The notes under the pieces are model-generated. The model was not told where the DNA came from, did no database searches, and was given only the letters and a program-made list of their open reading frames with translations. This document shows positions 34,258-50,974 of a DNA stretch of 64,000 bases, piece after piece. Where the stretch lies: NCBI RefSeq assembly GCF_000508085.1, contig NZ_KI669560.1:340219-404218 (forward strand), given 5' to 3'. The position numbers and the translations under genes were made by a program. Within the stretch, counting starts at the first letter, position 1, and every line of letters begins with the position of its first letter. The stretch is from Sediminibacterium sp. C3 (GTDB lineage: Bacteria; Bacteroidota; Bacteroidia; Chitinophagales; Chitinophagaceae).

Positions 34258-34284
34258 TGTATTAAATCATTGTTCTTAATCTAA

Positions 34285-37200
34285 TTACTCCAAAGGCTTA
34301 TAATCCTTAAAGAACTTCAGCGGAGCCGCTTCGGCCAATGCACGATACTGCTTCCAGCTGCCTTCGAACAAGGCATTGGCTTTTTGTATCACACTGTTCA
34401 CCGCTTCTTCTGCATAACCCATTAAGCGATTTTCCTGCTCACCAGGAATGGTGGTTTTACCCATAATCAATTGTCTGGCTTCGCCCAATAATCCATTAAT
34501 TGTTTCCTGCGGAATATTTCCATAGCCTTGTTTCAACTGAGGCTTACCATTCAGCATTTCGCGGATTTCTTTTAATGCATCTGTAACTGGCTTAGCAGCT
34601 TTGCGGATAGTATCAGCTGCTTTGCGATCCATGCTTGCATAACCAGCTTCTACTTTCTTCATAATCTCATCCACTTCTGTCAAACGATCATTCAAAGCAG
34701 TCAGCTTTATGATTGATTTTTCCATTCTTGCATTCGCAACCCGGATAGCATTTCTTACTGTCAATGGTGTTGGTGCATTCGGATCATCGTTCACTACAAC
34801 AAATGTGCTGTCTTTTAAATCTCTGCCAAGGGTTAATACCACTTTGTATTTGCCAGGATTAACAGGCAATCCTCCAGGTTCAGCACCACCGCCACCTGCA
34901 CCTCCAAAACGGCCACCGCCGCCGCCTCTTCCGCCGCCGCCTGCCTGGCGAATACCCTTACCTTCCATACCCCAGTAATATTTATTGAAGCCGGAATCTA
35001 CGCGGGTTCTGAGGTTTCTTACATTTACCCCATACTCATCATAAATAGCCATCTGCAACGTATCGGAAATTCTATTTTTACCTGTATCAGCAGCCGTTTT
35101 ATTTACGAAGAAAGTAATAGGAGCTCCTGTTCTTTTGTTCTCTCCTTCGTAAGTGCCATAAGTACTGTACTCAATACCAGAAGCATTTTTCATTTTAGCC
35201 TGGTATGCTTGTGGTGCTTCAAAAGCGACTAGCTTTTTAGCAAACACTTGACCTTTATTTGCCGCCACTTTTCGCAATGGACGAATATCATCTAGAATCC
35301 ACAATGCTCTGCCAAATGTAGCGATTACCAAATCGGCCTCTCTTTCCTGAATGGCCATATCATAAGTAGATACAGAAGGATAGCCATTTTTGAACTGCTG
35401 GAAATTGGTTCCGTTGTCTAAGCTTACCCATAGCCCTTGTTCTGTTCCTACAAATATTAAATTAGGTTCTACTGGATCTTGAATCACACACAGTGCATAG
35501 CCAATCACTTTTTTCTCATCCACCATTCTTGTCCAGGTTTTGCCATAGTCTGTAGTTCTGTAAACAAATGGACGCATTTCACCTCTTCTGTAATCGTTCA
35601 CTACTACAAAAGCTTCGCCACCATTGTGTTTAGACGCTTTGATTTGTGGAACCCATGCTCCCAAAGGCATTCCAGGTAATTTGCCTCTGAAATTGGTCCA
35701 TGTTTTTCCACCATCTCTGGTCAATTGAATATTACCATCATCGGTTCCTACCCAAATAACCCCTTGCTCTTTTGGAGATGGCTCAATGGTTAAAATGGTA
35801 CAATGGTTTTCTGCACCGGTAATATCTACGGAAATACCACCATTGTTGCTCTGATCAATTTTGGCAGAATCGTTGGTAGTTAAATCAGGAGAAATTAATT
35901 CCCAAGAAGCGCCTTTATTCGTACTCTTATTTACAAACTGACTTCCGTAATATATAGTGGCTTTGTCAAAAGGATCTTGTGCAATAGCAGCATTCCAGTT
36001 GAAGCGCTGTCTTACATTTTTACTGGGTCTGGGTGGTCTGATACTCCACTGTTCTCCGGTTGCAATATTATAACGGGAAACATTTCCTCCCTGACTCATC
36101 GTATACACCCAGTTAGGGTCTTCTGCATCAGGCATCACATCAAACCCGTCTCCACCGCTAACGCCTTGCCAGAAAGCGTTTCTGATTCCACTTCTTCTCC
36201 AAACATAGGCAGGTCCATGCCAGCTACCGTTATCTTGTAAACCTCCCATAACATTGTAAGGGATTTGATTGTCTACATTCACATGATAGTATTGACCCAA
36301 TGGTAGTTTTTCATCAAACTGCCAAGTCTTACCTCTGTCTCTTGAAATACCGATACCCCCATCATTACCATCAATAATAAAATTGGCATCGTTTGGATGA
36401 ATCCACCATGCATGGTGATCGGGATGGATACCACTGTAAGGAATAACTGGCTTCCAGGTTTTACCTGCATCATCACTTACATTGATTACCTGATTGATAT
36501 TGTAAATTCTGTTTTCATTTTTGGTATCTACCGCAATGTCCTGAAAATAAAAAGCACGATTGGTTACCACAGCTGGATCGCTGTTTACCAACTCCCATTT
36601 AAATCCACCATCATCGGATTTATACAAGCCATTCTTGGTGGCTTCCACCAATGCATATACGCGGTTCGGATCGGTACGAGCAATGCTGATTCCGATACGG
36701 CCATAATCGCCCTCGGGCAAACCATGCTCCTTACCTAATTTGGTAAAAGTTTTACCGCCATCCATGGTTACATAAAAACCACTTCCGCTTCCACCACCTT
36801 TTAAGCTCCAGGGTGTGCGCTTGTGCTCGTACATATTCACAAACAACTTATTGGGATTCGCAGGGTCCATTACCATATCACCTACACCACTGTTTTGATT
36901 GGTGTATAAAATTTGCTTCCAAGTTTCTCCTCCATCGGTTGTTTTATAAACGCCTCTTTCGGGATGATCTGCAAATGGATTACCCATTGCACCTACATAT
37001 ACCACATCCGGATTGGTTGGGTCAATGATGATGCGATGAATATTGCGGGTCTTTTCTAAACCCATGCGCTTCCAGGTTTTTCCACCGTCTAAACTTTTGT
37101 AAATTCCTTCTCCTAAGCTGATTGAATTACGAGGATTACCTTCTCCAGTTCCTGCCCAAACCACGCTGGGATTGGATTGTACCAACGCTATTGCACCTAT

Positions 37201-37464
37201 ATTCTGTATGGGTTGGTCGTCAAAAATGGGCGTCCACGAAGCACCTCCATTTTCAGTTTTCCATACGCCACCACTGGCTGTGCCCAAAAAGATAATATTG
37301 GGATTGGTCCACACCGCATCAATGGCAGTTACACGACCACTCATGCCTGCCGGCCCAATATTACGGGGCTTCATGTTTTTAAAGTGTTTGGATAAATCTA
37401 CCTGCTGGGCATACACAGCAAAACTGGCTGCAATACCCACAAAGGCTAAGAGTAATTTTCTCAT
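34285..37464 (-). CDS. Exported VPS10/BNR-repeat (sortilin-like) protein
   Basis: The start at 37464 (MRKLLLAFVG) gives a signal peptide ending AVYAQ and a protein of 1059 residues. About 650 residues consist of BNR/Asp-box repeats (SLDGGKTWKRM, TTDGGETWKQI, SDDGGFKWELV, SDDAGKTWKPV), forming one or two beta-propellers of the VPS10/sortilin type. A beta domain, a flexible Gly-rich linker (about residues 865-885) and a helical C-terminal region follow. The role is unknown; related Bacteroidota proteins are annotated as exported glycosyl hydrolases, but I see no catalytic signature to prove that. Confidence 0.88.
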   Translation of the reverse strand: MRKLLLAFVGIAASFAVYAQQVDLSKHFKNMKPRNIGPAGMSGRVTAIDAVWTNPNIIFLGTASGGVWKTENGGASWTPIFDDQPIQNIGAIALVQSNPSVVWAGTGEGNPRNSISLGEGIYKSLDGGKTWKRMGLEKTRNIHRIIIDPTNPDVVYVGAMGNPFADHPERGVYKTTDGGETWKQILYTNQNSGVGDMVMDPANPNKLFVNMYEHKRTPWSLKGGGSGSGFYVTMDGGKTFTKLGKEHGLPEGDYGRIGISIARTDPNRVYALVEATKNGLYKSDDGGFKWELVNSDPAVVTNRAFYFQDIAVDTKNENRIYNINQVINVSDDAGKTWKPVIPYSGIHPDHHAWWIHPNDANFIIDGNDGGIGISRDRGKTWQFDEKLPLGQYYHVNVDNQIPYNVMGGLQDNGSWHGPAYVWRRSGIRNAFWQGVSGGDGFDVMPDAEDPNWVYTMSQGGNVSRYNIATGEQWSIRPPRPSKNVRQRFNWNAAIAQDPFDKATIYYGSQFVNKSTNKGASWELISPDLTTNDSAKIDQSNNGGISVDITGAENHCTILTIEPSPKEQGVIWVGTDDGNIQLTRDGGKTWTNFRGKLPGMPLGAWVPQIKASKHNGGEAFVVVNDYRRGEMRPFVYRTTDYGKTWTRMVDEKKVIGYALCVIQDPVEPNLIFVGTEQGLWVSLDNGTNFQQFKNGYPSVSTYDMAIQEREADLVIATFGRALWILDDIRPLRKVAANKGQVFAKKLVAFEAPQAYQAKMKNASGIEYSTYGTYEGENKRTGAPITFFVNKTAADTGKNRISDTLQMAIYDEYGVNVRNLRTRVDSGFNKYYWGMEGKGIRQAGGGGRGGGGGRFGGAGGGGAEPGGLPVNPGKYKVVLTLGRDLKDSTFVVVNDDPNAPTPLTVRNAIRVANARMEKSIIKLTALNDRLTEVDEIMKKVEAGYASMDRKAADTIRKAAKPVTDALKEIREMLNGKPQLKQGYGNIPQETINGLLGEARQLIMGKTTIPGEQENRLMGYAEEAVNSVIQKANALFEGSWKQYRALAEAAPLKFFKDYKPLE

Positions 37465-37558
37465 AAAGGAATTTAGTTTTAGGAAGCGGTAATTTCCTAA
37501 ATAAAGGTGCAATTGCCAAAAACTAAGGATGAGTGGCTTATATTTATCGGTAGAAAGA

Positions 37559-38839
37559 ATGCCCTTGAAAAATAATTCCATCCTTACCAACAGCAGCTTA
37601 AAAACAGGTATCTACGCAGCCGTCGTTGCTTTTTTAAGTTATACCATGATTTTTGGTTTTCGCAAATCCTTTACGGTTTGCACGTTTGATGGCATGGCAT
37701 ACTGGGGCCTGGGTTATAAAACATTGTTGGTACTAAGCCAGATGCTTGGGTACTTGATGGCCAAGTTTTATGGAATTAAATTCATTGCAGAACTCAAACG
37801 TATGGGTCGCAATAAAAATGTGTTGACCTTGGTAGGAATTTCCTGGTTGGCCTGGTTGTTATTTGCGTTAACTCCTGCGCCATTCAATATTGTTTTTCTT
37901 TTCATGAACGGGTTTCCACTGGGTATGTTGTGGGGCGTTATTTTTTCTTATATCGAGGGGAGAAAAACCACCGATTTTATTGGCGCAGCACTAGCAGTTA
38001 GCTTTATTTTTTCATCGGGTTTTGTAAAGTCGGTTGGGGGCTGGCTGATGGTGGAATGGAATATATCTGAGTTCTGGGTTCCCTTTGTTACTGGGCTGGT
38101 TTTTGCACTTCCTCTACTGTTGTTTATTTACCTCATGGAACAAATTCCTCCGCCAACTGAAGAAGATATTGCCTTACGCATGAACCGAACACCCATGACT
38201 GCAGCAGACAGAAAAAAATTTATTCGGCATTTTTTTCCAGGTATTGTTGCGGCCGTTATCATCTATGCTTTTGCCACTATTTTCAGAGACATTAGAGACA
38301 ATTTTAGTGCAGACATGTGGAAGGAAATGGGCTATTTAAATCAACCTGCCATATTTTCTAAAACAGAAACCCCCATTACACTGGTTATTCTGGTTTTGAT
38401 AGGCAGCATGGTGCTGATCAAAAACAGTTTTAAGGCATTTATGCTTTCTCATGTTTTTATCATGCTGGGCTTTATTGTTGCGGGATTGAGTACCTGGTTG
38501 TTCAGCAGTGGAGGGCTTGCCCCCATCTGGTGGATGACCCTGGTAGGCTTGGGTTTATACATGGTTTATATCCCCTTCAATGCAGTGTATTTTGAGCGCA
38601 TGATTGCTGCATTTCAATTTACCGGCAATGCGGGTTTCTTAATTTATGTAGCCGACTCTTTTGGTTACTTGGGAAGTGTGAGTGTCTTATTGAGCAAAGA
38701 AATTTTTAAAGTTCAATTGAATTGGGTGCATTTCTTTTCGAATAGTGTAATGGGCTTGTCTGTGGCGGGGGTATTGATTACGCTTTATTCTGCTAGGTAT
38801 TTCAAATTAAAACACGATAAAAATGCCTCTTTTTTATAA
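37559..38839 (+). CDS. DUF5690 family membrane protein
   Basis: The start at 37559 (MPLKNNSIL) is preferred; an ATG ten codons upstream would place a TATATTTA box (37539-37546) inside the gene. About 426 residues with 12 membrane helices, MFS-like overall. The N-terminal YTMIFGFRKSFTVCTFDG and the following LGYKTLLVLSQMLGY are typical of DUF5690, a Bacteroidota membrane family of unknown function. No substrate can be inferred. It is the last ordinary chromosomal gene before the accessory segment. Confidence 0.85.
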   Translation: MPLKNNSILTNSSLKTGIYAAVVAFLSYTMIFGFRKSFTVCTFDGMAYWGLGYKTLLVLSQMLGYLMAKFYGIKFIAELKRMGRNKNVLTLVGISWLAWLLFALTPAPFNIVFLFMNGFPLGMLWGVIFSYIEGRKTTDFIGAALAVSFIFSSGFVKSVGGWLMVEWNISEFWVPFVTGLVFALPLLLFIYLMEQIPPPTEEDIALRMNRTPMTAADRKKFIRHFFPGIVAAVIIYAFATIFRDIRDNFSADMWKEMGYLNQPAIFSKTETPITLVILVLIGSMVLIKNSFKAFMLSHVFIMLGFIVAGLSTWLFSSGGLAPIWWMTLVGLGLYMVYIPFNAVYFERMIAAFQFTGNAGFLIYVADSFGYLGSVSVLLSKEIFKVQLNWVHFFSNSVMGLSVAGVLITLYSARYFKLKHDKNASFL

Positions 38840-38901
38840 TTGATTATAAAGATATCGCTTATTTTTAGGGTTTTGATATAAATAACTCGCTATATTTGAG
38901 T

Positions 38902-40014
38902 ATGATTTCCCGTTATTTAGGTGACCAAATAACCCATATACAACCCACCAAAAAAGCGATTCTATTAATTGGGGCAAGGCAAGTTGGCAAAACAACTTTA
39001 CTTAAACAACTGTTTTCAGATGCTTTGTGGTTGTATGGAGATGATGCGGATACACGTCAACAACTGAGTAATCCAAATGAGACAGTTTTAAAAAATCAAT
39101 TAGGTACTAATAAAACCTTAGTAATAGATGAAGCACAAAGAATTGAAAACATTGGTTTAACGGCAAAAATCATCACAGACAGATTACCCAATATAACATT
39201 AATACTATCTGGTTCATCTGCTTTTGAATTAGCGAATAAATTAAATGAGCCATTAACCGGTAGAAAATGGGAGCTGCAAATGTTTCAATTGAGCTATGAT
39301 GAAATGTGTAATTATCATACAGCTTTTACGGAAAACAGATTGTTAAAGCAAAGGTTATTATACGGTTATTATCCAGAAGTAGTATTGGGTGAAGGCAATC
39401 AACAAACTATCCTAAAAGAAATTTCAAGTGCATACCTATATAAAGATATTCTGACCTGGGAAAATATTCATAAACCTGATAAATTAGAACGACTCATACA
39501 AGCCATTGCCCTTCAAGTAGGCCAATTGGTATCCTATCATGAATTAGGACAAATAGCAGGATTAAGTTCAGCAACCGTTGAACGCTATATTAACTTATTA
39601 GAAAAAGCATTTGTAATATACAGGTTAGGCAGCTTTAATAGAAATTTGAGAAACGAATTAAATAAAAGTCGGAAAATATATTTTTACGATAATGGATTAA
39701 GAAATGCAGTCATTAATCAGTTTCAGCCAATTGAACTAAGAAATGATATTGGTGCCTTATGGGAAAATTATTTATTAGCAGAAAGAACCAAATATTTATC
39801 AGCGAAAAAAATATATTGTAATCGCTATTTCTGGCGAACAAAAGATGGCGCTGAAATAGACTATGTTGAAGAGTATAACGGCGAAATTTATGCGTATGAA
39901 TTTAAATGGAGTTCAGCAACAAAAGCAAAGTTTTCTAAATCATTTGTTGAACAGTACAAACCGGTAGAAACAAAACTTATTCATTCAGAAAATTATATGG
40001 AGTGGTTGAGGTGA
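38902..40014 (+). CDS. AAA-type ATPase with DUF4143 C-terminal domain
   Basis: 371 residues, ATG at 38902. N-terminal AAA_14 ATPase: Walker A GARQVGKTTLL (about 27-37), Walker B LVIDEAQR, sensor-like ILSGSSAFEL. A winged-helix-like segment (HELGQIAGLSSATVERYI) leads to the DUF4143 domain with a PD-(D/E)xK-like end (WRTKDGAEIDYVEEY, then YAYEFKW). Such proteins are common single accessory genes in Bacteroidota and are moved between genomes; their role is unresolved. TATATTTG ends 3 nt before the ATG. It marks the left part of the accessory segment. Confidence 0.88.
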   Translation: MISRYLGDQITHIQPTKKAILLIGARQVGKTTLLKQLFSDALWLYGDDADTRQQLSNPNETVLKNQLGTNKTLVIDEAQRIENIGLTAKIITDRLPNITLILSGSSAFELANKLNEPLTGRKWELQMFQLSYDEMCNYHTAFTENRLLKQRLLYGYYPEVVLGEGNQQTILKEISSAYLYKDILTWENIHKPDKLERLIQAIALQVGQLVSYHELGQIAGLSSATVERYINLLEKAFVIYRLGSFNRNLRNELNKSRKIYFYDNGLRNAVINQFQPIELRNDIGALWENYLLAERTKYLSAKKIYCNRYFWRTKDGAEIDYVEEYNGEIYAYEFKWSSATKAKFSKSFVEQYKPVETKLIHSENYMEWLR

Positions 40015-40508
40015 AAAAAATTAATCAGATTTCATCACTTTTGAAATAAACGCTTCTTTTCGCCTAGTTGATACTTCGACTTCTGATCCATCTATTAGTT
40101 GAACAGAACCACCTTTGCCTTTATTATAAGACTTAATAAACGAAAGATTAATGAGATGAGAATTATGTACTCTGAAAAAATTATAATCGGTTAGTAATTC
40201 TTCAAACTCTTTTAAAGTTTTAGCTACTACTAATTTAGTCTTTTCTGTTAAATATAAGGTAGTATAGTTGATATCACTTTCGCATCTAATAATAGAAGAA
40301 ACAGGAATAAATTCTATACCCGATAAAGTAGGGACGGCTATCTTTTTATCATGTAAGCTTAATTGTTTAAAATTTGCATACAACAAATCAAATTTCTGTT
40401 TGAAATCTTTTTGTTCAATAGTATCGCTAAATTTATCGATAGCTAGTTTCAAATCGTCAATATCAACTGGTTTCAGTAAATAACCAATAGCACTAATGTC
40501 TCGACCCC

Positions 40509-41525
40509 TTAAAAACTAGACAAAAGTTCAATATTGGTTAGTCTGTTTTGGGCTGTTTTTTCTCTGCTTTTGGCAAAGATAGCCTCGCCTGCAGAAAACT
40601 CAAGGCTATACGAAGCGGTGGTGGCCTTTTCACAAGGGCCTTCAACCACCGGCCTTGACTTTTCCTCCGGCTTTGCGGCTTCAGGTTGCCTAAGCAGATC
40701 AACACCAGTATAATAGTCATCCCAGGCCTGTTGTGGTGATTGATCACCTAAGCTTCCGTGTAGCCTTCTTTCATTGTAATGCTTTTTCCACCTGTTCATG
40801 ACCAGGCCGGCATCATAGATCGATTCAAACTCATATCTGCGTTCAATGGTTCGCTCTACAATGCTGTGATATGCTTCTATGAAAGAGTTCTCCTCCGGAG
40901 TGGCAACATGGGTAAATTCTTGGTCTACTTGCATCTCTTTGAGGTAATCCCTCACAAGCTGGGCAATGAACTGACTTCCGTTGTCGTTTCTGATGGTGAT
41001 ACCCTTAACAGGATGTTTTTCAATAATCCGGCTAAGCAACCACTTCACCTGTTCCTTTCGGATACGCCACCAAAGAAGCTGTCCCAAGATCTTGCGACTA
41101 TATACATCGAGCACAGTCAACACCAATGCATTACGACCTGCACCATGGATATGAAGGTACTTGATGTCCATACACAGCTGCTGCATCGGCGCTTCGGCTT
41201 GTTGAGTGTAGTACTGAACAAACTTACGCTTGTCTGTCTTAACCTGAATTTTACTACAATACAGCAAACCTTGCTCCGCCATCAGCCTGTACACCTTTTT
41301 CCTATTGATTAGAAAACCTTCCTGTCGAAGACTGGAAGTCATCACCCGGTATCCATAGTCAACAAACTCAATGCCTAAAATAAACTTTACAGCAATAATC
41401 ACGCTGATGTTGCTGAGCTCATTACCATCCTTCATCAGAGTATGGGTCGATGGCTTTCTGCCTTGTTTTCCCGATTTACATCGGTAATAGAAGCTACTCC
41501 GATTAACACCACACCATTGCAGCAT
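40509..41525 (-). CDS. IS3-family transposase OrfB (DDE integrase domain)
   Basis: 338 residues from an internal ATG; in the -1 frame relative to OrfA it extends upstream without stop to the A8 run at 41593-41600, giving KPLKVQDVRSCIQLFESKIK before MLQWCGVN. The DDE catalytic residues are in CMDIKYLHI, IRNDNGSQF and EENSFIEAYHS, within an rve core. The C-terminal 80 residues after SPQQAWDDYY form an unusual polar extension. The natural product is expected to be the OrfAB fusion made by frameshifting. Confidence 0.92.
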   Translation of the reverse strand: MLQWCGVNRSSFYYRCKSGKQGRKPSTHTLMKDGNELSNISVIIAVKFILGIEFVDYGYRVMTSSLRQEGFLINRKKVYRLMAEQGLLYCSKIQVKTDKRKFVQYYTQQAEAPMQQLCMDIKYLHIHGAGRNALVLTVLDVYSRKILGQLLWWRIRKEQVKWLLSRIIEKHPVKGITIRNDNGSQFIAQLVRDYLKEMQVDQEFTHVATPEENSFIEAYHSIVERTIERRYEFESIYDAGLVMNRWKKHYNERRLHGSLGDQSPQQAWDDYYTGVDLLRQPEAAKPEEKSRPVVEGPCEKATTASYSLEFSAGEAIFAKSREKTAQNRLTNIELLSSF

Positions 41526-41584
41526 CCGACTAACCTTTATCTTACTTTCAAAGAGCTGGATACAGGATCTTACATCCTGAACCT

Positions 41585-41878
41585 TTAACGGCTTTTTTTT
41601 AAAAGCTCGGTTTTGAACTCAAGCTCCAAAGCCTGGTTCGCAATGATCCGTTTCAAACGTTCATTCTCAGACTGTAACTGTTTGACTTCCGGATCAATGG
41701 TGTGATACTTGGACCGTAAACCAGCTATCCCATCCTGATTGAACTCCTTCTTCCAACGATGGAATAACGATTGTGCCACATTGTGCTTGCGTAGCGTCTC
41801 AGTAAGCCCGTACTGATCCACTTCCTGGATGAGCTGAAGCTTCTGTTCAACACTCCAACTTCGACGTTTTGTACTCAT
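41585..41878 (-). CDS. IS3-family transposase OrfA (HTH protein)
   Basis: 97 residues with an HTH_Tnp_1-type domain (SVEQKLQLIQEVDQYGL, SLFHRWKKEFNQDG) and a C-terminal leucine-zipper-like coiled coil (LQSENERLKRIIANQALELEFK). It ends in LLKKSR just after an A8 run where -1 slippage would fuse it to OrfB, as in other IS3-family elements. OrfA alone usually binds the terminal repeats and limits transposition. Confidence 0.92.
   Translation of the reverse strand: MSTKRRSWSVEQKLQLIQEVDQYGLTETLRKHNVAQSLFHRWKKEFNQDGIAGLRSKYHTIDPEVKQLQSENERLKRIIANQALELEFKTELLKKSR
41593..41600 (-). promoter_or_regulatory. Slippery A8 run for -1 OrfAB frameshifting
   Basis: In the OrfA phase the run reads TTA AAA AAA AGC; a -1 slip continues as AAG CCG TTA AAG into the OrfB frame with no stop. 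Confidence 0.7.
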
Positions 41879-42230
41879 GGTTCCCTAAATTTAATGTTCT
41901 AAACTGAATTAAAAAATCAGTCCAGTCATTTAGGGGGCTAAGACACTAAATTTGAAGGCTTTTACTGCATACTTTTCATAAGCAGTTGTAAAAATAACAT
42001 CAAAAGAAAGTTTATCAAACTTACTCAACAAATCGAAGCCAGTTAACTCATTTAATTGGACATCCAAAAAAATGAGATCAGGCATTTCTTGGACTATTAA
42101 ATCATAAGCCGATAGCACAGAACTAGCTATGCCAACTAATTTTAATTTTTCTGCAAACTTTGTCAAAAATAAAGACTTTAGTCTATCAATACAATGCTGC
42201 TCATCATCTACAATAATTACTTTAATCATA

Positions 42231-44249
42231 TCAAGCCTTCATTAAGGGTAATTGCAAAACAACTCTGGTACCAACAGGTAAGTCATGGATGTCTATAGTT
42301 GCATTTGTCTTTTTCAAATGATTTAAAATGGCTATTCTTTCCTTCGTTAAACTAAATCCAAACGATTTTTTATTCTTGCTTAAAACTTGGACATTTTTTC
42401 GTCCAACTCCATTATCGTCAACATGTATCAGAAGCATCCCATTTTCCAGTCGAATGTCAATAGAAACAATGCCACCTTGTTCCTTACTTGATAATCCATG
42501 CCAAATACTATTTTCCACCAATGGCTGCAATATCGAAGGAGGAACTAACAGTGTTGATACATCAACACTGTCTTGAACTGACAAATTGTAATTTACTTTA
42601 TTACCTAATCGCTTTGATTCTAGCTGAACATATAGTTCAATCATTGATAATTCTTCACTCAATAGGATTTCTTTTTCTTCAGAGTTCTCTAGAGTATATC
42701 TCATTAATTTAGCGAACTTTGTAAGGTACTCGTCTGCATCTTGAATATTGTTCTTTTGAATATAATCTGAAATAGAATTAAGTGAATTAAACAAGAAGTG
42801 CGGATTAAGCTGCAACTTCAGAATTTTCATCTGATTCTCAATCACTGTCGATTTCAAAATCTGCTCTTTGGTTGTACTCTCTAATGACTGTTTCTTTCTT
42901 AGAAAATAAAATATTACTAGCAACAATAATAAAAGTATTGCTGAAAATATAAGTGTATACTTTCTTTTAATTTCAATATTTGAGATTTCTTGTCTTAGCA
43001 ACATTTTGTTTTTTTCTGATGCTTGAATAACTTGATCTTTTTTTTGCCTTTCTGCTAAAACTAATTTTTGACTCTCAAAACTTTTTTTTGCACTAGATAA
43101 TTCAAGCGAAATGTATCTAATCTTTTCTTTATTTAAAGCTATTTTCGTTTTTTGCTCTTTAAGTAAAGCAGCAAGTTTAAGCCTATTAATAATTTCCTTA
43201 TCCACAGCAGCTTTTTTCTCAGATTCGAACTTAAGTTCAGCCTTTGTAACCTCTACTCGCTTATCGAGATTGTCAATACTGTCACGAGCCCCTATGAATC
43301 GCTTATAATAATCATATGCCATTGGAAAATTATTTTTCCTCTCATATATCGCATATAATTTCTCAAAAGCCTCTTTCTGGCGAAATAGAATTCCACCTTT
43401 ATTTGCATCATCAGCTAATTCCAAGTATTTTTTTTCAGCGGAATCAAAATCTTCCATATGAAAATAAACATCCGCTAAACTGGAGTTCACCTCCAAACGC
43501 TGTGTTTGATCTGTTTTATAGGAAGAACTTTTTTCTAGTCTCTTTAATATTTGAAGAGCTGAGTCAAACTTATTTAAGCGATTATACAATACCGATTGGT
43601 TATAAAGTGAAATATCAGCCAACGATGTATATCCCAAATTCAATTGAATCGATGCCACTACTTTAAACTCATCTAAAGCACGCTGATAATCAATAGCATG
43701 ATCCATAAGAAACGAGCCATAGTTACCATGACATACAGCCCTAACTTCTTTATCACCTATCTCATCTGCTAGCTTAATACTAAGCTTGCCAACTGAATCA
43801 GCTTTTTGCTGTATATTGAGTCTATTATAAACTCCAGTAAGCTGGCCGAGTAAGCTAACATAAAATATGTGAATTCTATTTGCTGCATATTTCTTTTTTA
43901 AGACATCGATATAGCTAAGAGCTTTAAGCGTTGTCTCAAGTGCCTTCACCATATCCCCTTTAATTGTATACATTGTACCTAGCTGTCGGTATGCTGAAGC
44001 TACACCTCTTAAAAAGCCTATCTTTTCCGACATTCCCAATCCTATATAAGTGAGTTTGATGGGTGTGTCAATAATTGAAAACATTCTATGCTGACCAGCC
44101 AAATTTATAATTCCAATAATTCTTTCAGAATCCGGTAATGACTTGTTTTCGTAAACTTTATAAAACGGATGCTTTTTATAATCAAAATTTTGTGCAACAA
44201 GCAAAAAATTTGAAAAGAGTAAAACAAGAAACAATGCACCTTTAATCAT
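42231..44249 (-). CDS. LytS-like sensor histidine kinase with TPR sensor domain
   Basis: 672 residues. A signal-like N-terminus (to about residue 19) leads to a periplasmic TPR array (about 55-330), a long coiled coil (about 335-425) and one membrane helix (about 437-457). The cytoplasmic His_kinase domain has the phospho-acceptor in LNPHFLFNSLNS (His484), and the HATPase domain has PSILQPLVENSIWHGL and VDDNGVGRKN. This 7TMR-less, TPR-sensing layout is typical of Bacteroidota LytS/LytTR systems. Its response regulator, 1 nt downstream, is destroyed by the IS. A divergent orphan LytTR gene lies 215 bp upstream. Confidence 0.92.
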   Translation of the reverse strand: MIKGALFLVLLFSNFLLVAQNFDYKKHPFYKVYENKSLPDSERIIGIINLAGQHRMFSIIDTPIKLTYIGLGMSEKIGFLRGVASAYRQLGTMYTIKGDMVKALETTLKALSYIDVLKKKYAANRIHIFYVSLLGQLTGVYNRLNIQQKADSVGKLSIKLADEIGDKEVRAVCHGNYGSFLMDHAIDYQRALDEFKVVASIQLNLGYTSLADISLYNQSVLYNRLNKFDSALQILKRLEKSSSYKTDQTQRLEVNSSLADVYFHMEDFDSAEKKYLELADDANKGGILFRQKEAFEKLYAIYERKNNFPMAYDYYKRFIGARDSIDNLDKRVEVTKAELKFESEKKAAVDKEIINRLKLAALLKEQKTKIALNKEKIRYISLELSSAKKSFESQKLVLAERQKKDQVIQASEKNKMLLRQEISNIEIKRKYTLIFSAILLLLLLVIFYFLRKKQSLESTTKEQILKSTVIENQMKILKLQLNPHFLFNSLNSISDYIQKNNIQDADEYLTKFAKLMRYTLENSEEKEILLSEELSMIELYVQLESKRLGNKVNYNLSVQDSVDVSTLLVPPSILQPLVENSIWHGLSSKEQGGIVSIDIRLENGMLLIHVDDNGVGRKNVQVLSKNKKSFGFSLTKERIAILNHLKKTNATIDIHDLPVGTRVVLQLPLMKA

Positions 44250-44342
44250 GGTTAAATTAGTTTAAAAAACATGACCATAAAAATACTCACTATTAGAAAC
44301 TAAGCACTTGATTACTTCAAAACTACTCAGTTCAATAAGTAT

Positions 44343-44374
44343 CAAATAATAAATCATATATTCCAAATAATAAA
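44343..44374. promoter_or_regulatory. Pair of 11-bp direct repeats, 21-bp period: putative LytTR operator
   Basis: CAAATAATAAA occurs at 44343-44353 and again at 44364-44374, start-to-start 21 bp. LytTR regulators typically bind two direct half-sites two helical turns (about 21 bp) apart. The pair lies between the divergent kinase and LytTR genes. Confidence 0.6.
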
Positions 44375-44430
44375 CAGCACTATTCTTGTTGGGGGGATTA
44401 ATCTAAGTTAGCTCAAAAATTAATTTAAAC

Positions 44431-44460
44431 CCTACTATGTAGGGAGAAAATTTTATCTCC
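44431..44460 (+). promoter_or_regulatory. Two small inverted repeats before the orphan LytTR start
   Basis: CCTAC-TAT-GTAGG (44431-44443) and GGAGA...TCTCC (44443-44460) stand in tandem and end 4 nt before the ATG at 44465. They could fold in the mRNA leader and affect initiation; no known riboswitch is recognised. Confidence 0.3.
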
Positions 44461-44464
44461 GCAT

Positions 44465-44878
44465 ATGCTGGAAACCAATAAGTTACTAACAAACCAATAT
44501 CAAGATTTACTTATAGCCCATTTGAGTAGGCTATTATCCAAACAAATAATTACACTTCAAACAACTGAAGAAATAATATTGGTTAACACGGCTGATATTA
44601 TTTATTGCTCAAGTGCTATTAATTACACTACAATCTGGTTAATTGAGAAAAAAAAGATTGTTATAGCAAAAACCCTCGGGGATATAGAGCAACAATTAAA
44701 AGAGTATAATTTTTTTAGAATTCATCAATCATATCTCATTAATCTGCTTTGGCTAAAACAATTTAAAAAAGCTAAAGGTGGTTATGCAATTATGATTGAT
44801 GATACAAAATTGGAAGTGTCCAGTAGAAAAAGAGAAGCATTTCTAAAATATATTACTCGTTACACAAAATTGACATAA
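44465..44878 (+). CDS. Orphan LytTR DNA-binding protein without receiver domain
   Basis: 137 residues: a short helical N-terminus (about 35 residues) and a full LytTR domain (VNTADIIYCSSAINYTTIW, then FFRIHQSYLINLLWLKQF and a basic KREAFLKYI). No phospho-acceptor domain exists, so activity must be set by abundance or by a partner. The DNA-binding half is clearly related to that of the interrupted regulator (compare FFRVHNSHLINLSFI), suggesting similar target sites. Direct repeats with 21-bp spacing lie before this gene and before the YIP1 operon that follows it. Confidence 0.88.
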   Translation: MLETNKLLTNQYQDLLIAHLSRLLSKQIITLQTTEEIILVNTADIIYCSSAINYTTIWLIEKKKIVIAKTLGDIEQQLKEYNFFRIHQSYLINLLWLKQFKKAKGGYAIMIDDTKLEVSSRKREAFLKYITRYTKLT

Positions 44879-44884
44879 TACGTG

Positions 44885-44917
44885 CGAATAATAAATGGTA
44901 TTCTACGAATAATAAAT
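44885..44917. promoter_or_regulatory. Pair of 12-bp direct repeats, 21-bp period: putative LytTR operator of the YIP1 operon
   Basis: CGAATAATAAAT occurs at 44885-44896 and 44906-44917, start-to-start 21 bp. It shares AATAATAAA with the pair at 44343-44374 and lies 50-85 bp before the ATG at 44969. Confidence 0.65.
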
Positions 44918-44968
44918 CGCACTTATTCTCTCGATACTATTCTAATAAGTTAGAGCAAAATATATAAT

Positions 44969-45667
44969 ATGGTATCAACCAACCAACCGCTTAATCAACC
45001 TTCACATACTAACAATTCCACTAATAGTGGTTGGTTCGACAAAGAAAAGATTAAAGACTTCTACAAAGAAAGTTTACCGAAAATTTTAAAAACAATCTTC
45101 ACGGAACCGATTGAAGGAACCTATTCACTGCTATCCGAAAAAACTGAAACTAGTTACTTTAACTCTTTAGTACTCCTAATATCTACAGGCATCCATTATA
45201 TATTAATCCTGTATATAATAGCAGGAGACATGCGATCGATGGTTGGCTTTGGAACCTTAGTAAAAATTGGTTTAGAAATTATTGCGTTTATGCTCGTGAT
45301 TACTGCTATAAGTTTTGGCATTAAGTCTATTTCAGGTAAACCCTCTTTTAAGAATGAGTTACTTACAGGTGCACTTTATGGTATTCCTCTTACTTTACTT
45401 ATCATTAGCGTACTCCTATTAAACTTCTTTTCTAAAAGCTTAGATGTTACAGACCTCCTCTCTGACAGAAGTTTAAAAGCACTTCAAAGTGGCGGTATCA
45501 TCATAGGATTTTTAATGCTCTATATTTTTTTCATGTTTATCAATATCATCCAACAATCACTAAAATCCGCAGGTAGAAAAGACTCAATAGCCTGGTATAT
45601 ATCCCCAATTGCAGTACTTACTGCCTTCTATATTACTTCAATAATTATCGAAAAACAACTTAAATAA
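44969..45667 (+). CDS. YIP1-family membrane protein
   Basis: 232 residues: a polar Asn/Thr/Ser-rich N-terminus of about 65 residues, then five membrane helices (LVLLISTGIHYILILYII; LEIIAFMLVITAISFGI; TGALYGIPLTLLIISVLLL; GGIIIGFLMLYIFFMFI; ISPIAVLTAFYITSIII). The layout fits the YIP1 fold; function in bacteria is unknown. First gene of a tight plus-strand set (9-bp gap to the WG-repeat gene) preceded by the putative LytTR operator. Confidence 0.75.
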   Translation: MVSTNQPLNQPSHTNNSTNSGWFDKEKIKDFYKESLPKILKTIFTEPIEGTYSLLSEKTETSYFNSLVLLISTGIHYILILYIIAGDMRSMVGFGTLVKIGLEIIAFMLVITAISFGIKSISGKPSFKNELLTGALYGIPLTLLIISVLLLNFFSKSLDVTDLLSDRSLKALQSGGIIIGFLMLYIFFMFINIIQQSLKSAGRKDSIAWYISPIAVLTAFYITSIIIEKQLK

Positions 45668-45676
45668 ATATTTTAT

Positions 45677-47233
45677 ATGAAAAATTTACACCTCTCTAGC
45701 ATAATTTTAGCTATAACTATTTTTTTAACTAGTTGTGATTCAGGATCTGGCAATAGTATTGGAAAGGAAATTGATCTTATCCCCGTATCAAACGGTGATA
45801 CCTGGGGATACATTAATAAAGAAGGAGAATTTAAAATTAATACTCAGTTTGTTTATGCCGGTTTATTTAATGATGGGATAGCATTAGTTAAAACCGACGG
45901 CGAAAATAATACTTATGGCTATATAGACGAAAGTGGGAAGTACCTCATTAATCCTTCTTTTCTCCAAGCCACCAATTTTAATAATGGTATCGCAGTAGTT
46001 GTATCGCCGAATGAGGTTCCTAAAGCCATCAATAAAAAGGGGGAGGTACTATTTCCACTAACAGGCGCAGAAAAAGCGATGGAACCGAGAGGTGGCTTTA
46101 TTGCCTTTGCCATACAAAAGGATAACGAACAACTTTGGGGATTTGCTGATCTAAAGGGAAAAACTATTATCAACCCTCAGTTTAAGCAAGTAGGCTATTT
46201 TAGTGAAGATCTATGTGCTGTAGCAGATAAAACAGGTAAATGGGGATTTATAGATGAGCAAGGAAAAATCATTATAAATCCGCAGTTTCAGTTCGCAGAA
46301 GCATTTCAGGGTGAAGAAGCTATTGTTATTAACGACCGTAAGGTAGGTTTAATTGATAAAACTGGGAAATACATCATTAATCCACAATTTGAACAGCTGG
46401 TAAGAGATGGAAATTTGTTTGTGGTAAGGAGTGGTGGTAAGTTTGGTTGGGCCGATAAAGAAGGAAAATTTGTTATCAACCCGCAATTCGAAGCTACTTA
46501 TGGCTTTGCTGGCAGCAAAATGGCTGCAGTAATGAGTGGGAGAAGTTGGGGCTATGTAGATAAAGAGGGAAAATATATTATCAACCCGCAATTTTCTTAT
46601 GCAAGTCCATTTAACGGTTCAGTAGCAGTTGTAAGTAACGGCTCACAAGTAGGCATTATCGACAAAGAAGGAAAATATTTGGTTAATCCTCAATTCAGTG
46701 GCGTTTCAAGTGATTATGCCGGAGCCCTGATTGGTAAAAGTACAACTGGCACTGTTGTCTCGGATTTCGTAGATATTGGTTCTGCAATTAATAAACTTCA
46801 TGGAGAGATTACAGATAAAACCGTTGCTGGTTTCAGCTTTGCTAGTAAAGTTGGGGAGATCATTCAAAAATTTAGTAAAACACCCGCAAACTATAGCTAC
46901 TCAAATAGAAATGTTTATTTATTCGAAAGAGAACAAATAAGTCCGGGAATTAAACTAAGCCTAGAAATCGGCGGAATCATATTTATTTCTAGAGGATGGA
47001 ATTATGAACTAAATCCCGAAGCGTATCCTGATCAGTTTCAATATAGAATTGATTTAGAAGGAAAGGCTATAAGTAAGGTAAAGGATCTGATGCAAGGATT
47101 AAAGAATGCTTTTGCAGGATATACACTAACAAGTGGCGATAATAGCGATATAGAGATGAGCAATAGCTATCAAAAAATTTCGATTGCAGATAGAGAATCG
47201 GCAATTTATGTTGAAATAACCAAACTCAATTAA
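45677..47233 (+). CDS. WG-repeat lipoprotein
   Basis: 518 residues. A signal peptide with lipobox FLTSCDSG (Cys20) is followed by about nine WG repeats (GYIDESGKYLINPSF, GFIDEQGKIIINPQF, GLIDKTGKYIINPQF, GWADKEGKFVINPQF and others) over residues 30-350. The C-terminal 160 residues form a separate domain with KTPANYSYSNRNVYLFERE and an amphipathic helix, which I do not recognise. It is probably anchored at the cell surface or in the periplasm. Gaps of 9 and 8 bp to its neighbours indicate an operon. Confidence 0.88.
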   Translation: MKNLHLSSIILAITIFLTSCDSGSGNSIGKEIDLIPVSNGDTWGYINKEGEFKINTQFVYAGLFNDGIALVKTDGENNTYGYIDESGKYLINPSFLQATNFNNGIAVVVSPNEVPKAINKKGEVLFPLTGAEKAMEPRGGFIAFAIQKDNEQLWGFADLKGKTIINPQFKQVGYFSEDLCAVADKTGKWGFIDEQGKIIINPQFQFAEAFQGEEAIVINDRKVGLIDKTGKYIINPQFEQLVRDGNLFVVRSGGKFGWADKEGKFVINPQFEATYGFAGSKMAAVMSGRSWGYVDKEGKYIINPQFSYASPFNGSVAVVSNGSQVGIIDKEGKYLVNPQFSGVSSDYAGALIGKSTTGTVVSDFVDIGSAINKLHGEITDKTVAGFSFASKVGEIIQKFSKTPANYSYSNRNVYLFEREQISPGIKLSLEIGGIIFISRGWNYELNPEAYPDQFQYRIDLEGKAISKVKDLMQGLKNAFAGYTLTSGDNSDIEMSNSYQKISIADRESAIYVEITKLN

Positions 47234-47241
47234 TAACCTGT

Positions 47242-50187
47242 ATGAAAAAATTATTTTTATTGATATTGTTTATTGCACAGTATCTATGGTCAGATGGACA
47301 ATTTTTATTAGACACATCTTTCAATACTCCTAGTCTAGAAGAAAAACTACCTCGCGGATTTAATTTAGGAATTGGAAATGCAATAAGTGATATGGCATTA
47401 CAAAAAGATGGTAAGCTAATTGTAGTAGGAAGTTTTGAAGAGTACAATGGGAGAAAGCGGAATCGTATTTGTAGAATTTTATCGAACGGAGAAATAGATG
47501 AGGGTTTTATAACTGGCAGTGGGTTTAACGCTAGCGCCAATATTGTTAAAATTCAAAATGATGGCAAAATTTTAATTGCAGGAAGATTCAATGTTTATAA
47601 CAACATGCCATGCGCTGGCTTAGTGCGATTGAATGAAAATGGAACTATTGATAAAACATTTAATCTTCCTACGAGAATACAAGGAACAATAAACGACATA
47701 TTACCAACTGAAGACGGAAAAGTATTTATTGCAGGTAGATTTAATCAATACAATAATGTTTTTGTAAAAGGTGTAGTCCGCCTATTAAATGACGGAAGTG
47801 TCGATAATACTTTTGCTTTGCCAAGTGGTTTTGATGGTGGTGTTAATAGTATTGCAATACAAAAAAATAAAATTATAATTGGAGGTGACTTTACCTTTAA
47901 CCTGGGCAGTGGTCTACTTATCAGCAAATTAACCAGATTAACAGCCAGCGGCTCTTTTGATATAACCTACAACGCAAGTGGCAAAGGTTTTGAAACCTCA
48001 GGTGGAAACGTACTAAAAGTATATATTCAACCCGACAACAAAATTTTAGTTTCGGGTAATTTTAAAAAATATAATGACAATGTTGTAAATAGATTTATTA
48101 GAATTAATGAAAACGGTTGGTTAGATAAAAAATTCAATAATAATATCGATTCTAAAAAATTTGGCTCTGTAGAAGGAGAAATAGATAAAATTTATTGTGC
48201 TGCAGATGGTAGCATTTATTTAGGTGGTGAATTTGAATCATTTGGAAACTACATACGATTTGGTTTTGTAAAATTAGACGCACAAGGAAATGTTGTTCGT
48301 GAATTTTATGATAATAATGTACTTACTGGTCAAAGGCCTATCATTACTTCTTTTGCGGTACTACCTTCTGGAGAGTATATTGTTGGAGGGAGATTTGAAT
48401 ATTTAAACGGTTTCAAAAGAAACTCAATTGCGTTATTAGATAATAGAGGCTCAATATCAAAAAAACTATTTTTTGTATCAAAAGGAGTAAGTGGCCCAGT
48501 TACCCATATTATTCCATTTAAAGGAAAATTCTTACTTGCGGGTAAGTTTAATTTTTATGACGATGAAGTGGTAAATGGAATAACCCTGATAGATGAAAAA
48601 GGGGAAAGAGATGCATCATTTAATTTTTCTTCGGTATCCTTTAGAACAGAAACAATTTCAGATGTAAAAGTGTTGAAAAATGGTCAGATTTTACTTGCCG
48701 GTATTTTTAATCCAACTAATGCAAATAATAGCCATAAAATATTAAAGCTGAATGAGGACGGCTCTATTGAAGAGAGCTTCTATATTGGCGCAAACATTGA
48801 TAATTATGTTTACAGTATTGATGAACAAAGCGATGGAAAAATTATAGTTGGGGGTGACTTTAAGAAAGTAGACGGTATTAGTAAAGTGGGTATTATAAGA
48901 ATTAATATTGAGGGATCTATTGATAACAGTTTTAACAGTAACAACAGTTTAGATATGTTCATCAAAAAAATTGTCGTTGATAAAGAAACAGATAAGATTT
49001 TTGTTTCTGGAAGATATACTCATCCTTCAAGAAGGGTCTACATTAACTTACAACGATTAATGCCCAATGGAAATATAGACAATACTTTCAACTTTAGTTT
49101 ATTTGAAAATAAGGATGTCAAGGGTTTTACCATTGATAACAAAAAGCGAATTTTAGCTTATGGAGGTCTAAATACACAAGCTAATGCAAGGACAGAAATT
49201 ATTAGGGTTGACTATAACGGCAATTACGATCCATCTTTTTTAATAGATCCTAAATTTTACAAATATGGGAACTATGTTAACAGAGTACTTGTGCTACCTA
49301 CAAATGATATAATGGTTGGATTCCAAAGCCCCCCTAATGGAGATAATATATCTGAAAATAATTCAATTATTAGGCTAAACGATAACGGGGCAGTAAGTAC
49401 TAACTTTAAATTTAGTTCAAACATGAATTTGGGTACACAAGGTGAAATGTTTGGAACAATGAATAGCTCTATATTGTTAAACAATAATACCCTTTTGGTT
49501 GGAGGTAATTTTAATTTTATCGATAATCACTACATAAATTATTTAGCTAAGTTAAAAGTTAGCAGTTCTGTTAATATTTTAAATCAGCCTAGCTCTACAA
49601 TTAATTCAGGCAAAATCGAAACAGAAAAAGATGTACCATTAAATGCACTGGCAAAAGCGTTATTTAAAAACAAAAAAACTTTGCTTACTAACCAAGAGAA
49701 AAACTTGCTGTCAAATACTATTAGTGATTTTAAGATCGGGAAAAATGCCATTGAATTTTTTATAATTAACGACAAAGATGATTATGAGAGACCCGAAGAT
49801 GACCTTATACCTGTAAATATTAGTGTGAATGTGTTGGATCTAAACGATGACAGGAAAGACGAAGTAATTATTCAAATGAGTTCATCTATTTATGGTAGAG
49901 AAGGATCGCCGATTTTTATTTATTCACTTATAAATGGACAATTCACCAGAATATTAAATGACTCCGGAATATCGGTAGAAGTAAATACTAATACAAAAAG
50001 CGGATATAAGGAGATTGCTTTAATTAATCCAAATGGAGATATTAAGAAACCAGATGGGAGAAAATACACCATTTATAGTTTTAAAAAAGAGGATTATCAA
50101 ATGGTTGCAAAAACAAAACTTACTACCATACCTAAATGGGAAAAAATAGAAACCCTTTCAACTAAATATCAATCAACAATAAAATAA
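47242..50187 (+). CDS. Exported delta-60-repeat beta-propeller protein
   Basis: 981 residues, signal peptide to about residue 19. Residues 30-780 hold about 12 delta-60 repeats of 50-60 residues, each with a DGKILIAGRFN- or DNKILVSGNFK-like strand and a RLNENGTIDKTF-like end, forming tandem propeller blades. The C-terminal 190 residues are different: a charged helical linker, then VNISVNVLDLNDDRKDEVII, an FG-GAP/VCBS-like calcium-loop segment. No C-terminal type IX sorting domain is evident. It likely acts on or outside the outer membrane with the WG-repeat lipoprotein upstream. Confidence 0.87.
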   Translation: MKKLFLLILFIAQYLWSDGQFLLDTSFNTPSLEEKLPRGFNLGIGNAISDMALQKDGKLIVVGSFEEYNGRKRNRICRILSNGEIDEGFITGSGFNASANIVKIQNDGKILIAGRFNVYNNMPCAGLVRLNENGTIDKTFNLPTRIQGTINDILPTEDGKVFIAGRFNQYNNVFVKGVVRLLNDGSVDNTFALPSGFDGGVNSIAIQKNKIIIGGDFTFNLGSGLLISKLTRLTASGSFDITYNASGKGFETSGGNVLKVYIQPDNKILVSGNFKKYNDNVVNRFIRINENGWLDKKFNNNIDSKKFGSVEGEIDKIYCAADGSIYLGGEFESFGNYIRFGFVKLDAQGNVVREFYDNNVLTGQRPIITSFAVLPSGEYIVGGRFEYLNGFKRNSIALLDNRGSISKKLFFVSKGVSGPVTHIIPFKGKFLLAGKFNFYDDEVVNGITLIDEKGERDASFNFSSVSFRTETISDVKVLKNGQILLAGIFNPTNANNSHKILKLNEDGSIEESFYIGANIDNYVYSIDEQSDGKIIVGGDFKKVDGISKVGIIRINIEGSIDNSFNSNNSLDMFIKKIVVDKETDKIFVSGRYTHPSRRVYINLQRLMPNGNIDNTFNFSLFENKDVKGFTIDNKKRILAYGGLNTQANARTEIIRVDYNGNYDPSFLIDPKFYKYGNYVNRVLVLPTNDIMVGFQSPPNGDNISENNSIIRLNDNGAVSTNFKFSSNMNLGTQGEMFGTMNSSILLNNNTLLVGGNFNFIDNHYINYLAKLKVSSSVNILNQPSSTINSGKIETEKDVPLNALAKALFKNKKTLLTNQEKNLLSNTISDFKIGKNAIEFFIINDKDDYERPEDDLIPVNISVNVLDLNDDRKDEVIIQMSSSIYGREGSPIFIYSLINGQFTRILNDSGISVEVNTNTKSGYKEIALINPNGDIKKPDGRKYTIYSFKKEDYQMVAKTKLTTIPKWEKIETLSTKYQSTIK

Positions 50188-50193
50188 TAAAGT

Positions 50194-50496
50194 ATGAAAA
50201 AAGTATCAATCTTCGTATTAACAATTATTTCTACTTGCACAATCTCTTGCTCCTCTGGATTATCAGGAATTTATAAACCATCTAGTAATAGTGGCTTAGG
50301 GGAAGTAATTGATCAAATTGAGTTCGTTTCAAGCTCTAAAGCAAAAATAACTTCTATGGGCATGAGTACTGAGGTAACTTATGAATTAAATGGCAAGGAA
50401 TTAAAATTTACTACTGACCAAGGAAATCAAATATTAACTATTGATGCCAATGGTTGTATAGATGGAGGAAAAATGTTAGGTAAATTTTGTAAATAA
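50194..50496 (+). CDS. Small lipoprotein
   Basis: 100 residues with lipobox TCTISCSSG (Cys about residue 18) and a compact beta-rich mature domain (IEFVSSSKAKITSMG, then YELNGKELKFTTDQGNQILT) that resembles small lipocalin-like or DUF-type stress domains without a firm match. It follows the delta-60 gene by 6 bp and is the last clear gene of the operon. Confidence 0.7.
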   Translation: MKKVSIFVLTIISTCTISCSSGLSGIYKPSSNSGLGEVIDQIEFVSSSKAKITSMGMSTEVTYELNGKELKFTTDQGNQILTIDANGCIDGGKMLGKFCK

Positions 50497-50641: not shown

Positions 50642-50974
50642 ATGATTATAAATTATTTTTTAAACCAAGAACTGCAATCGTTTATGGACATTTGTGGCGC
50701 TTGTGAAAGAATTAAGAACACACCCATTCCCTATTCTTACAGTGCGTTTATTAAGAAATTTATTTTCTTATACATCATTACATTACCCTTAGGATTTGCA
50801 CTAACGCTTGGTTATTTTACCATACCAGCCACTTTGTTTATCAGCTATGTATTAACCAGTTTAGAATTGATTGCTGAAGAAATTGAAGACCCATTTGGCA
50901 ACGACGACAATGATTTGCCGATGGAAAAAATTGCCAATACCATTCAAAAAAACATTCAGGATATCTTGGCCTAA
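50642..50974 (+). pseudogene. C-terminal remnant of a bestrophin-family channel
   Basis: The 110-residue frame contains ICGACERIKNTPIPYSYSAF, a bestrophin signature, followed by two membrane helices and EEIEDPFGNDDNDLPMEKI, the conserved C-terminal acidic belt. Bacterial bestrophins are about 280-310 residues, so the N-terminal two-thirds are missing; an in-frame stop (50639-50641) stands just before the ATG. The missing part is not elsewhere in the window. The break coincides with the end of the accessory segment. A hairpin follows. Confidence 0.8.

Follow-up and report, generated by a model that had tools for sequence, protein, structure and literature searches.

The question raised by this locus is whether two pairs of short direct repeats in a 64,000-nucleotide stretch of Sediminibacterium sp. 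C3 (the window) are operators of a LytTR regulon and, if so, which protein reads them. The pairs are very probably LytTR operators read by the response regulator (RR) of the adjacent TPR kinase/RR pair, with two outputs and, in this strain, an input that has probably been lost. The regulon is a genuine one and is known in kind, whereas its operator sequence and extent are apparently undescribed in the literature searched. That search, covering part of the whole literature, found no described operator for the LytTR regulators of this group.

Repeat pairs and promoter architecture

The repeats are CAAATAATAAA at 44343 and 44364 and CGAATAATAAAT at 44885 and 44906 (Table 1), with a period of exactly 21 bp in each pair. 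They share the core AATAATAAA, which starts at 44345/44366 and 44887/44908. A previous sequence-only reading of this DNA had given these coordinates and this period correctly, but had missed both the full extent of the repeats and an element that accompanies them. Each repeat is a 12-bp half-site that also takes in a C at -2 and, following the core, a pyrimidine. Both promoters further contain the identical -7 box TAAGTTAG, at 44404 and 44946, exactly 38 bp past the start of the second core. This box differs by one base from TAnnTTTG, the -7 consensus of Bacteroidota (PMC9723704).

LytTR operators have been described as direct repeats of 9 to 11 nt separated by a gap of 11 to 13 nt (PMC4847170), and both pairs have 9-bp cores with a gap of exactly 12 bp. 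The geometry of direct repeats just upstream of a promoter is likewise of the LytTR type (PMC4847170, PMC6193735). In an alignment of 37 sites, which takes in a few matches without a kinase/RR neighbor, the -33 TTG position falls 5 bp past the proximal half-site and the -7 box 20 bp further. Columns outside the search pattern show the same elements, namely the -33 TTG 20 bp ahead of the -7 box (T in 35/37, T in 28/37 and G in 21/37) and the T and G that complete TAnnTTTG (23/37 each). The window promoters read TAT (promoter 1) and TTA (promoter 2) at -33, where most family sites have TTG, as would be expected of activator-dependent promoters.

The first pair lies between the kinase and LytTR-only genes, as the sequence-only reading had it, but it is oriented toward the LytTR-only gene at 44465 and not toward the kinase. 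The product of this gene matches the LytTR domain only and has no receiver domain. The second pair precedes a tight operon of cargo genes (44969-50496), whose first product scores 18.3 bits against the Yip1 family, below the Pfam gathering cut-off of 28.6, and is called no more than YIP1-like. On the other side of the first pair, divergent from the LytTR-only gene, are the kinase gene and an RR gene into which an IS3-family element (40497-41943) has been inserted, with a CTAA repeat at both junctions. The severed receiver part aligns with residues 1-98 of the intact S. salmoneum RR at 94%. The reading frames on either side of the element are still open, suggesting that the insertion is recent.

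Table 1. Operators, promoters and genes of the locus, in window coordinates
Feature	Coordinates	Strand	Remarks
LytTR RR, LytTR-domain part	40021..40452	-	PF04397 E=1.3e-16; 95% identical to S. salmoneum RR 92-251
IS3-family transposase genes, orfB 40509-41525 and orfA 41585-41878	40509..41878	-	Larger ORF over NF033516 cut-off
LytTR RR, receiver-domain part, severed by IS3 element	41930..42229	-	PF00072 E=3.3e-12
Histidine kinase, 672 aa, TPR repeats, His_kinase domain, intact	42231..44249	-	PF06580 E=3.9e-22; 83% identical in G659
Promoter 1 distal half-site CAAATAATAAAT	44343..44354	+	Identical in S. salmoneum and G659
Promoter 1 proximal half-site CAAATAATAAAC	44364..44375	+	21 bp from distal one
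Promoter 1 -33 position TAT	44381..44383	+	Inferred from 37-site alignment
Promoter 1 -7 box TAAGTTAG	44404..44411	+	Equal distance in both promoters and across family
LytTR-only protein, 137 aa	44465..44878	+	PF04397 E=1.2e-18; promoter 1 target, possible second reader
Promoter 2 distal half-site CGAATAATAAAT	44885..44896	+	Exact pair, period 21
Promoter 2 proximal half-site CGAATAATAAAT	44906..44917	+	21 bp from distal; conserved in G659 ahead of different operon
Promoter 2 -33 position TTA	44923..44925	+	Inferred from 37-site alignment
Promoter 2 -7 box TAAGTTAG	44946..44953	+	Equal distance in both promoters and across family
YIP1-like membrane protein, 232 aa, first promoter 2 cargo gene	44969..45667	+	Yip1 E=0.0023
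WG-repeat protein, 518 aa, cargo	45677..47233	+	PF14903 E=5.1e-56
Delta-60 / DUF5122 repeat protein, 981 aa, cargo	47242..50187	+	PF17164 E=2.2e-79; TIGR02608
Probable lipoprotein, 100 aa, cargo	50194..50496	+	Near-identical protein ends G659 cargo operon

Recurrence of the operator in related genomes

Two relatives have a comparable locus. In Sediminibacterium salmoneum (L043) the kinase and the LytTR-only gene recur together with an intact RR of 251 aa, on DNA that is 96% identical up to window position 44849. Homology ends there, and the next operon is a different one, headed by a CsgG-domain protein. Ahead of this operon, CAAATAATAAAT and CGAAAAATAAAC stand 21 bp from each other, and TAGGTTTG follows at the 38-bp distance seen in the window; the operator is constant before unrelated cargo, CsgG-type in S. 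salmoneum and YIP1-like in the window. In a member of another genus (G659), the RR is also intact and the arrangement is complete, with a kinase that is 83% identical, an RR that is 70% identical and a 137-aa LytTR-only protein that is 77% identical. Its operators are 543 bp apart, against 542 bp in the window, and its cargo operon differs, starting with a different 239-aa protein and ending with a gene that matches the window gene at 50194. Between the window and this genome, promoter 2 has changed at 1/32 operator and -7 positions versus 20/37 spacer positions (p=2.8e-6). The LytTR-only gene itself shows a pN of 0.137 and a pS of 0.739, the latter nearly saturated, from which it follows that the gene is under purifying selection. 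The gene is a conserved target.

Two further genomes of the same genus (G094 and G089), with RR orthologs of about 53% identity, each have two sites, which precede genes for CsgG-type, YIP1-like and small membrane proteins, and the LytTR-only gene was not seen in the loci fetched from them. A half-site consensus, CRNNWAATMAAY, was derived from 14 half-sites in four same-genus genomes and built into a composite pattern of two 12-bp half-sites at 21 bp plus TAnnTT at a fixed distance. The 12-bp half-site was adopted because a pattern of a 9-mer pair plus TAnnTT at 2 mismatches was too unspecific, matching at about the control rate outside the four genomes. Among 147 same-genus genomes the composite pattern has 8 exact matches, 2 in each of the four with an RR ortholog and none elsewhere; this result is partly circular, as those sites built the pattern, whereas the absence elsewhere is not.

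Blind searches extended this distribution. At the order level (398 genomes, exact pattern), one further genome (G447) was found. Its site is divergent from a TPR kinase gene, after which comes an RR of 58% identity, and a second, weaker site stands 2.7 kb away before a YIP1-like gene. Homologs of the YIP1-like protein stand behind the same operator type in G089, G094 and G447. At the family level (396 genomes, up to 1 mismatch), there were 36 matches outside the own genome versus 4 for the reversed pattern. The fetched stretch includes a TPR kinase and/or a LytTR RR for 24 of the 36, and for 16 of the 19 exact matches. The remaining 12 lack a kinase or RR nearby, 5 of them in genomes that have the system elsewhere and 7 not so explained. 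Overall, the operator recurs beside matching kinase/RR genes in about 20 related bacteria, and the downstream genes differ between species. The 21-bp period and the fixed box distance recur across the family, in agreement with the conservation of spacing that the sequence-only reading had proposed as a check; the exceptions, a 22-bp period in G276 and a 37-bp offset in G333, come from relaxed scanning only. The half-site pair alone, searched at up to 1 mismatch in seven genomes, gave mostly scattered 1-mismatch matches beyond the known sites. The own genome holds one further exact half-site pair (C4:3124403), at which the -7 position does not fit.

The sites are tied to one lineage of regulators. 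In a tree of full-length RRs, all those linked to sites fall into one clade (support 100/99), to which the LytTR part encoded at 40021..40452 belongs, except for L234, a 1-mismatch match beside an RR outside the clade. No site was found at the locus of one clade member (L175). Related RR lineages outside the clade (G398, G394, G423, G409, G313 and others) yielded neither this site nor any other 21/22-bp repeat with TAnnTTTG. Together, the 24 of 36 family matches and the single RR clade point to a cognate LytTR protein for these sites.

The candidate readers of the sites

Since the sites are accompanied across species by the RR and mostly lack a LytTR-only gene, the RR is the likely reader, with adjacency as a pointer to the binding protein rather than proof of it. 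In the mechanism that we propose, two 12-bp half-sites 21 bp apart would lie on one helix face and end about 5 bp upstream of the -33 element, with the TAnnTTTG-type -7 box 20 bp further. The RR would bind this operator, probably as a phosphorylated dimer, and recruit RNA polymerase to promoters with weak -33 elements. Its two outputs in this lineage would be the LytTR-only protein and the interchangeable envelope-protein operon. Binding, phosphorylation and activation rather than repression are what we infer here from sequence. Because the RR gene is split by the IS3 element, the regulon of this strain is probably without its normal input. The sites may therefore be unread, or may be read by one of two possible remaining readers, the LytTR-only protein and, provided that it is expressed, the detached LytTR half of the RR.

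A chance origin of the pairs in AT-rich sequence, or a recent duplication of one promoter from the other, in either case without any regulatory function, would fit the base composition (GC 38.7%) and the short distance between the promoters, which is only 542 bp. This explanation is extremely improbable. The pattern AATAATAAA-N12-AATAATAAA occurs 2 times in the window and 0 times in 100 dinucleotide-preserving shuffles, and the only exact pairs of AATAATAAA in the whole 3,219,312-bp genome are these two, with 1 for the reversed-pattern control, so that the many random pairs which the sequence-only reading had named as a counterargument do not exist. Even at up to 3 mismatches, the composite of half-site pair and box returns these two sites only. 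Shuffles, reversed-pattern controls and the family search thus largely rule out chance or AT-richness, while the diverged spacers between conserved blocks and the finding of the operator beside a single RR clade in about 20 genomes, with unrelated genes downstream, speak against a recent copy as well. What gains strong support instead, from conservation, from the blind family search and from the co-occurrence with one RR clade, is the LytTR regulon that had been predicted to cover the 44465 gene and the YIP1-WG-delta60 operon.

The same prediction had named the orphan LytTR-only protein and/or the disrupted regulator as the reader, and of these it is the disrupted RR, whose counterparts are present at most site loci, that gained ground. 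The LytTR-only protein could be the main reader of both operators and, in the manner of LytTR Regulatory Systems, activate the envelope operon along with its own gene. In favor of this role, the protein has a LytTR domain, its gene stands behind one operator and is under purifying selection, and no other LytTR gene at the locus is intact in this strain. We regard the role as unlikely. The LytTR-only gene was not seen at most of the family-search loci that carry sites. Its product, which is divergent in the tree (branch 1.08), does not group with the site-linked RR clade, and it reads FFRIHQS against FFRVHNS, with Q for N where N201 of AgrA contacts DNA. Moreover, the A-run of the gene is one A shorter in S. 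salmoneum than in the window (L043:6180-6200), which frameshifts it in the assembly, yet both operators persist there; the frameshift could be a real loss, an assembly error or a slippage-prone run. Alternatively, the LytTR-only protein might act as a brake on the same operators, the RR inducing its own competitor in a negative feedback like that of BlpS on BlpR in Streptococcus gallolyticus. Competition between a LytTR-only protein and a LytTR RR at one consensus has that precedent (PMC8545106), and the 44465 gene adjoins the two-component pair, stands behind an operator of the same type and is intact beside an intact RR in G659. Against this stand the divergence of the protein and its contact residue, and the fact that BlpS is co-transcribed with its pair whereas the 44465 gene is divergent; such a brake is conceivable but rather doubtful. 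The protein may thus also be a putative binder of the sites, as an activator or as a BlpS-like competitor, and its autoregulation is possible.

With the RR as the preferred reader, a broader reading of the circuit can be offered tentatively, as one that may well not hold. Through one operator type the RR would drive its own receiver-less LytTR partner as well as an exchangeable envelope cargo, forming a feedback loop of which the two closest species would each retain half, the RR being lost to the IS3 element here and the partner to the frameshift in the S. salmoneum assembly. A PDB sequence search found no relative of the LytTR-only protein, and for the RR the listed matches, in their best stretches, cover the receiver domain only.

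Relation to known LytTR systems and variation at the locus

The operators of AgrA (S. aureus) and of YpdB and BtsR (E. coli) resemble those described here in having a pair of direct repeats spaced by about two turns of the helix upstream of a promoter, and in serving a LytTR RR with a histidine kinase (PMC4847170, PMC4227749, PMC5552118). Unlike them, the present system has the half-site CRNNWAATMAAY, a Bacteroidota -33/-7 promoter, a link to a TPR kinase and an envelope cargo that changes from one species to another. LytTR Regulatory Systems (HdrRM, BrsRM and the similar operons of Bacteroides) share with this locus a LytTR-only regulator whose own gene lies behind a direct-repeat operator upstream of the promoter (PMC6193735). 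In contrast to them, the LytTR-only gene has no membrane inhibitor in the same operon, a second operator and promoter intervene before a species-dependent next gene, and a two-component pair is present. Membership in this class was consequently rejected, as the receiver-less LytTR regulator is there but the co-operonic downstream membrane inhibitor is not. BlpS is a LytTR-only protein that competes with BlpR, a LytTR RR, at the same site (PMC8545106), and the two loci are alike in encoding such a protein beside a LytTR two-component system (PMC8545106). Here, however, the gene is divergent with its own operator rather than co-transcribed with the two-component genes, the cargo consists of envelope proteins and not bacteriocins, and shared binding is putative.

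The operator/promoter grammar and the regulator clade are now concrete, with target operons of CsgG-type, YIP1-like/WG-repeat, beta-barrel and secreted proteins in about 20 species. These genes, mostly of unknown function, become testable as one regulon. Furthermore, the cargo swap under a constant operator, together with the broken regulator of this strain, provides a natural experiment in the persistence of a regulon whose operons or regulators have been exchanged.

Several minor observations concern the surroundings of the two promoters. The window from 34283 to 44849 is 96-99% identical to S. salmoneum, while its flanks are 79-88% identical, which looks like a recent exchange between species. 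The block breaks off 30 bp short of the stop codon of the LytTR-only gene, shortly ahead of the cargo operon that has been swapped. Beyond that operon, a 110-aa ORF (50642-50974) corresponds to the C-terminal portion of a membrane protein of 293 aa, present in intact form in S. salmoneum (L043:8798-9679), and the gene adjoining the cargo operon is hence truncated in the window. Promoter 1 of G659 (L255:9440-9530) has three tandem half-sites, each 21 bp apart, apparently through duplication of one 21-bp unit. Upstream of the kinase, a minus-strand TTTG-N17-TAGTTTTG at 44318-44346 has a -33 element that overlaps half-site 1, so that binding there could repress the kinase; since S. salmoneum does not conserve the TAGTTTTG -7 box, we do not claim such repression. 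The leader of the LytTR-only gene contains a perfect inverted repeat, CCCTACTATGTAGGG, at 44430-44444, unchanged in S. salmoneum and similar in G659, a possible hairpin or site for a second regulator. Finally, GTTGGGGGGATTA at 44388-44400, within the -33/-7 spacer of promoter 1, is near-unchanged in S. salmoneum and G659 and absent from the other promoters, and may serve the LytTR-only gene as a second control element.
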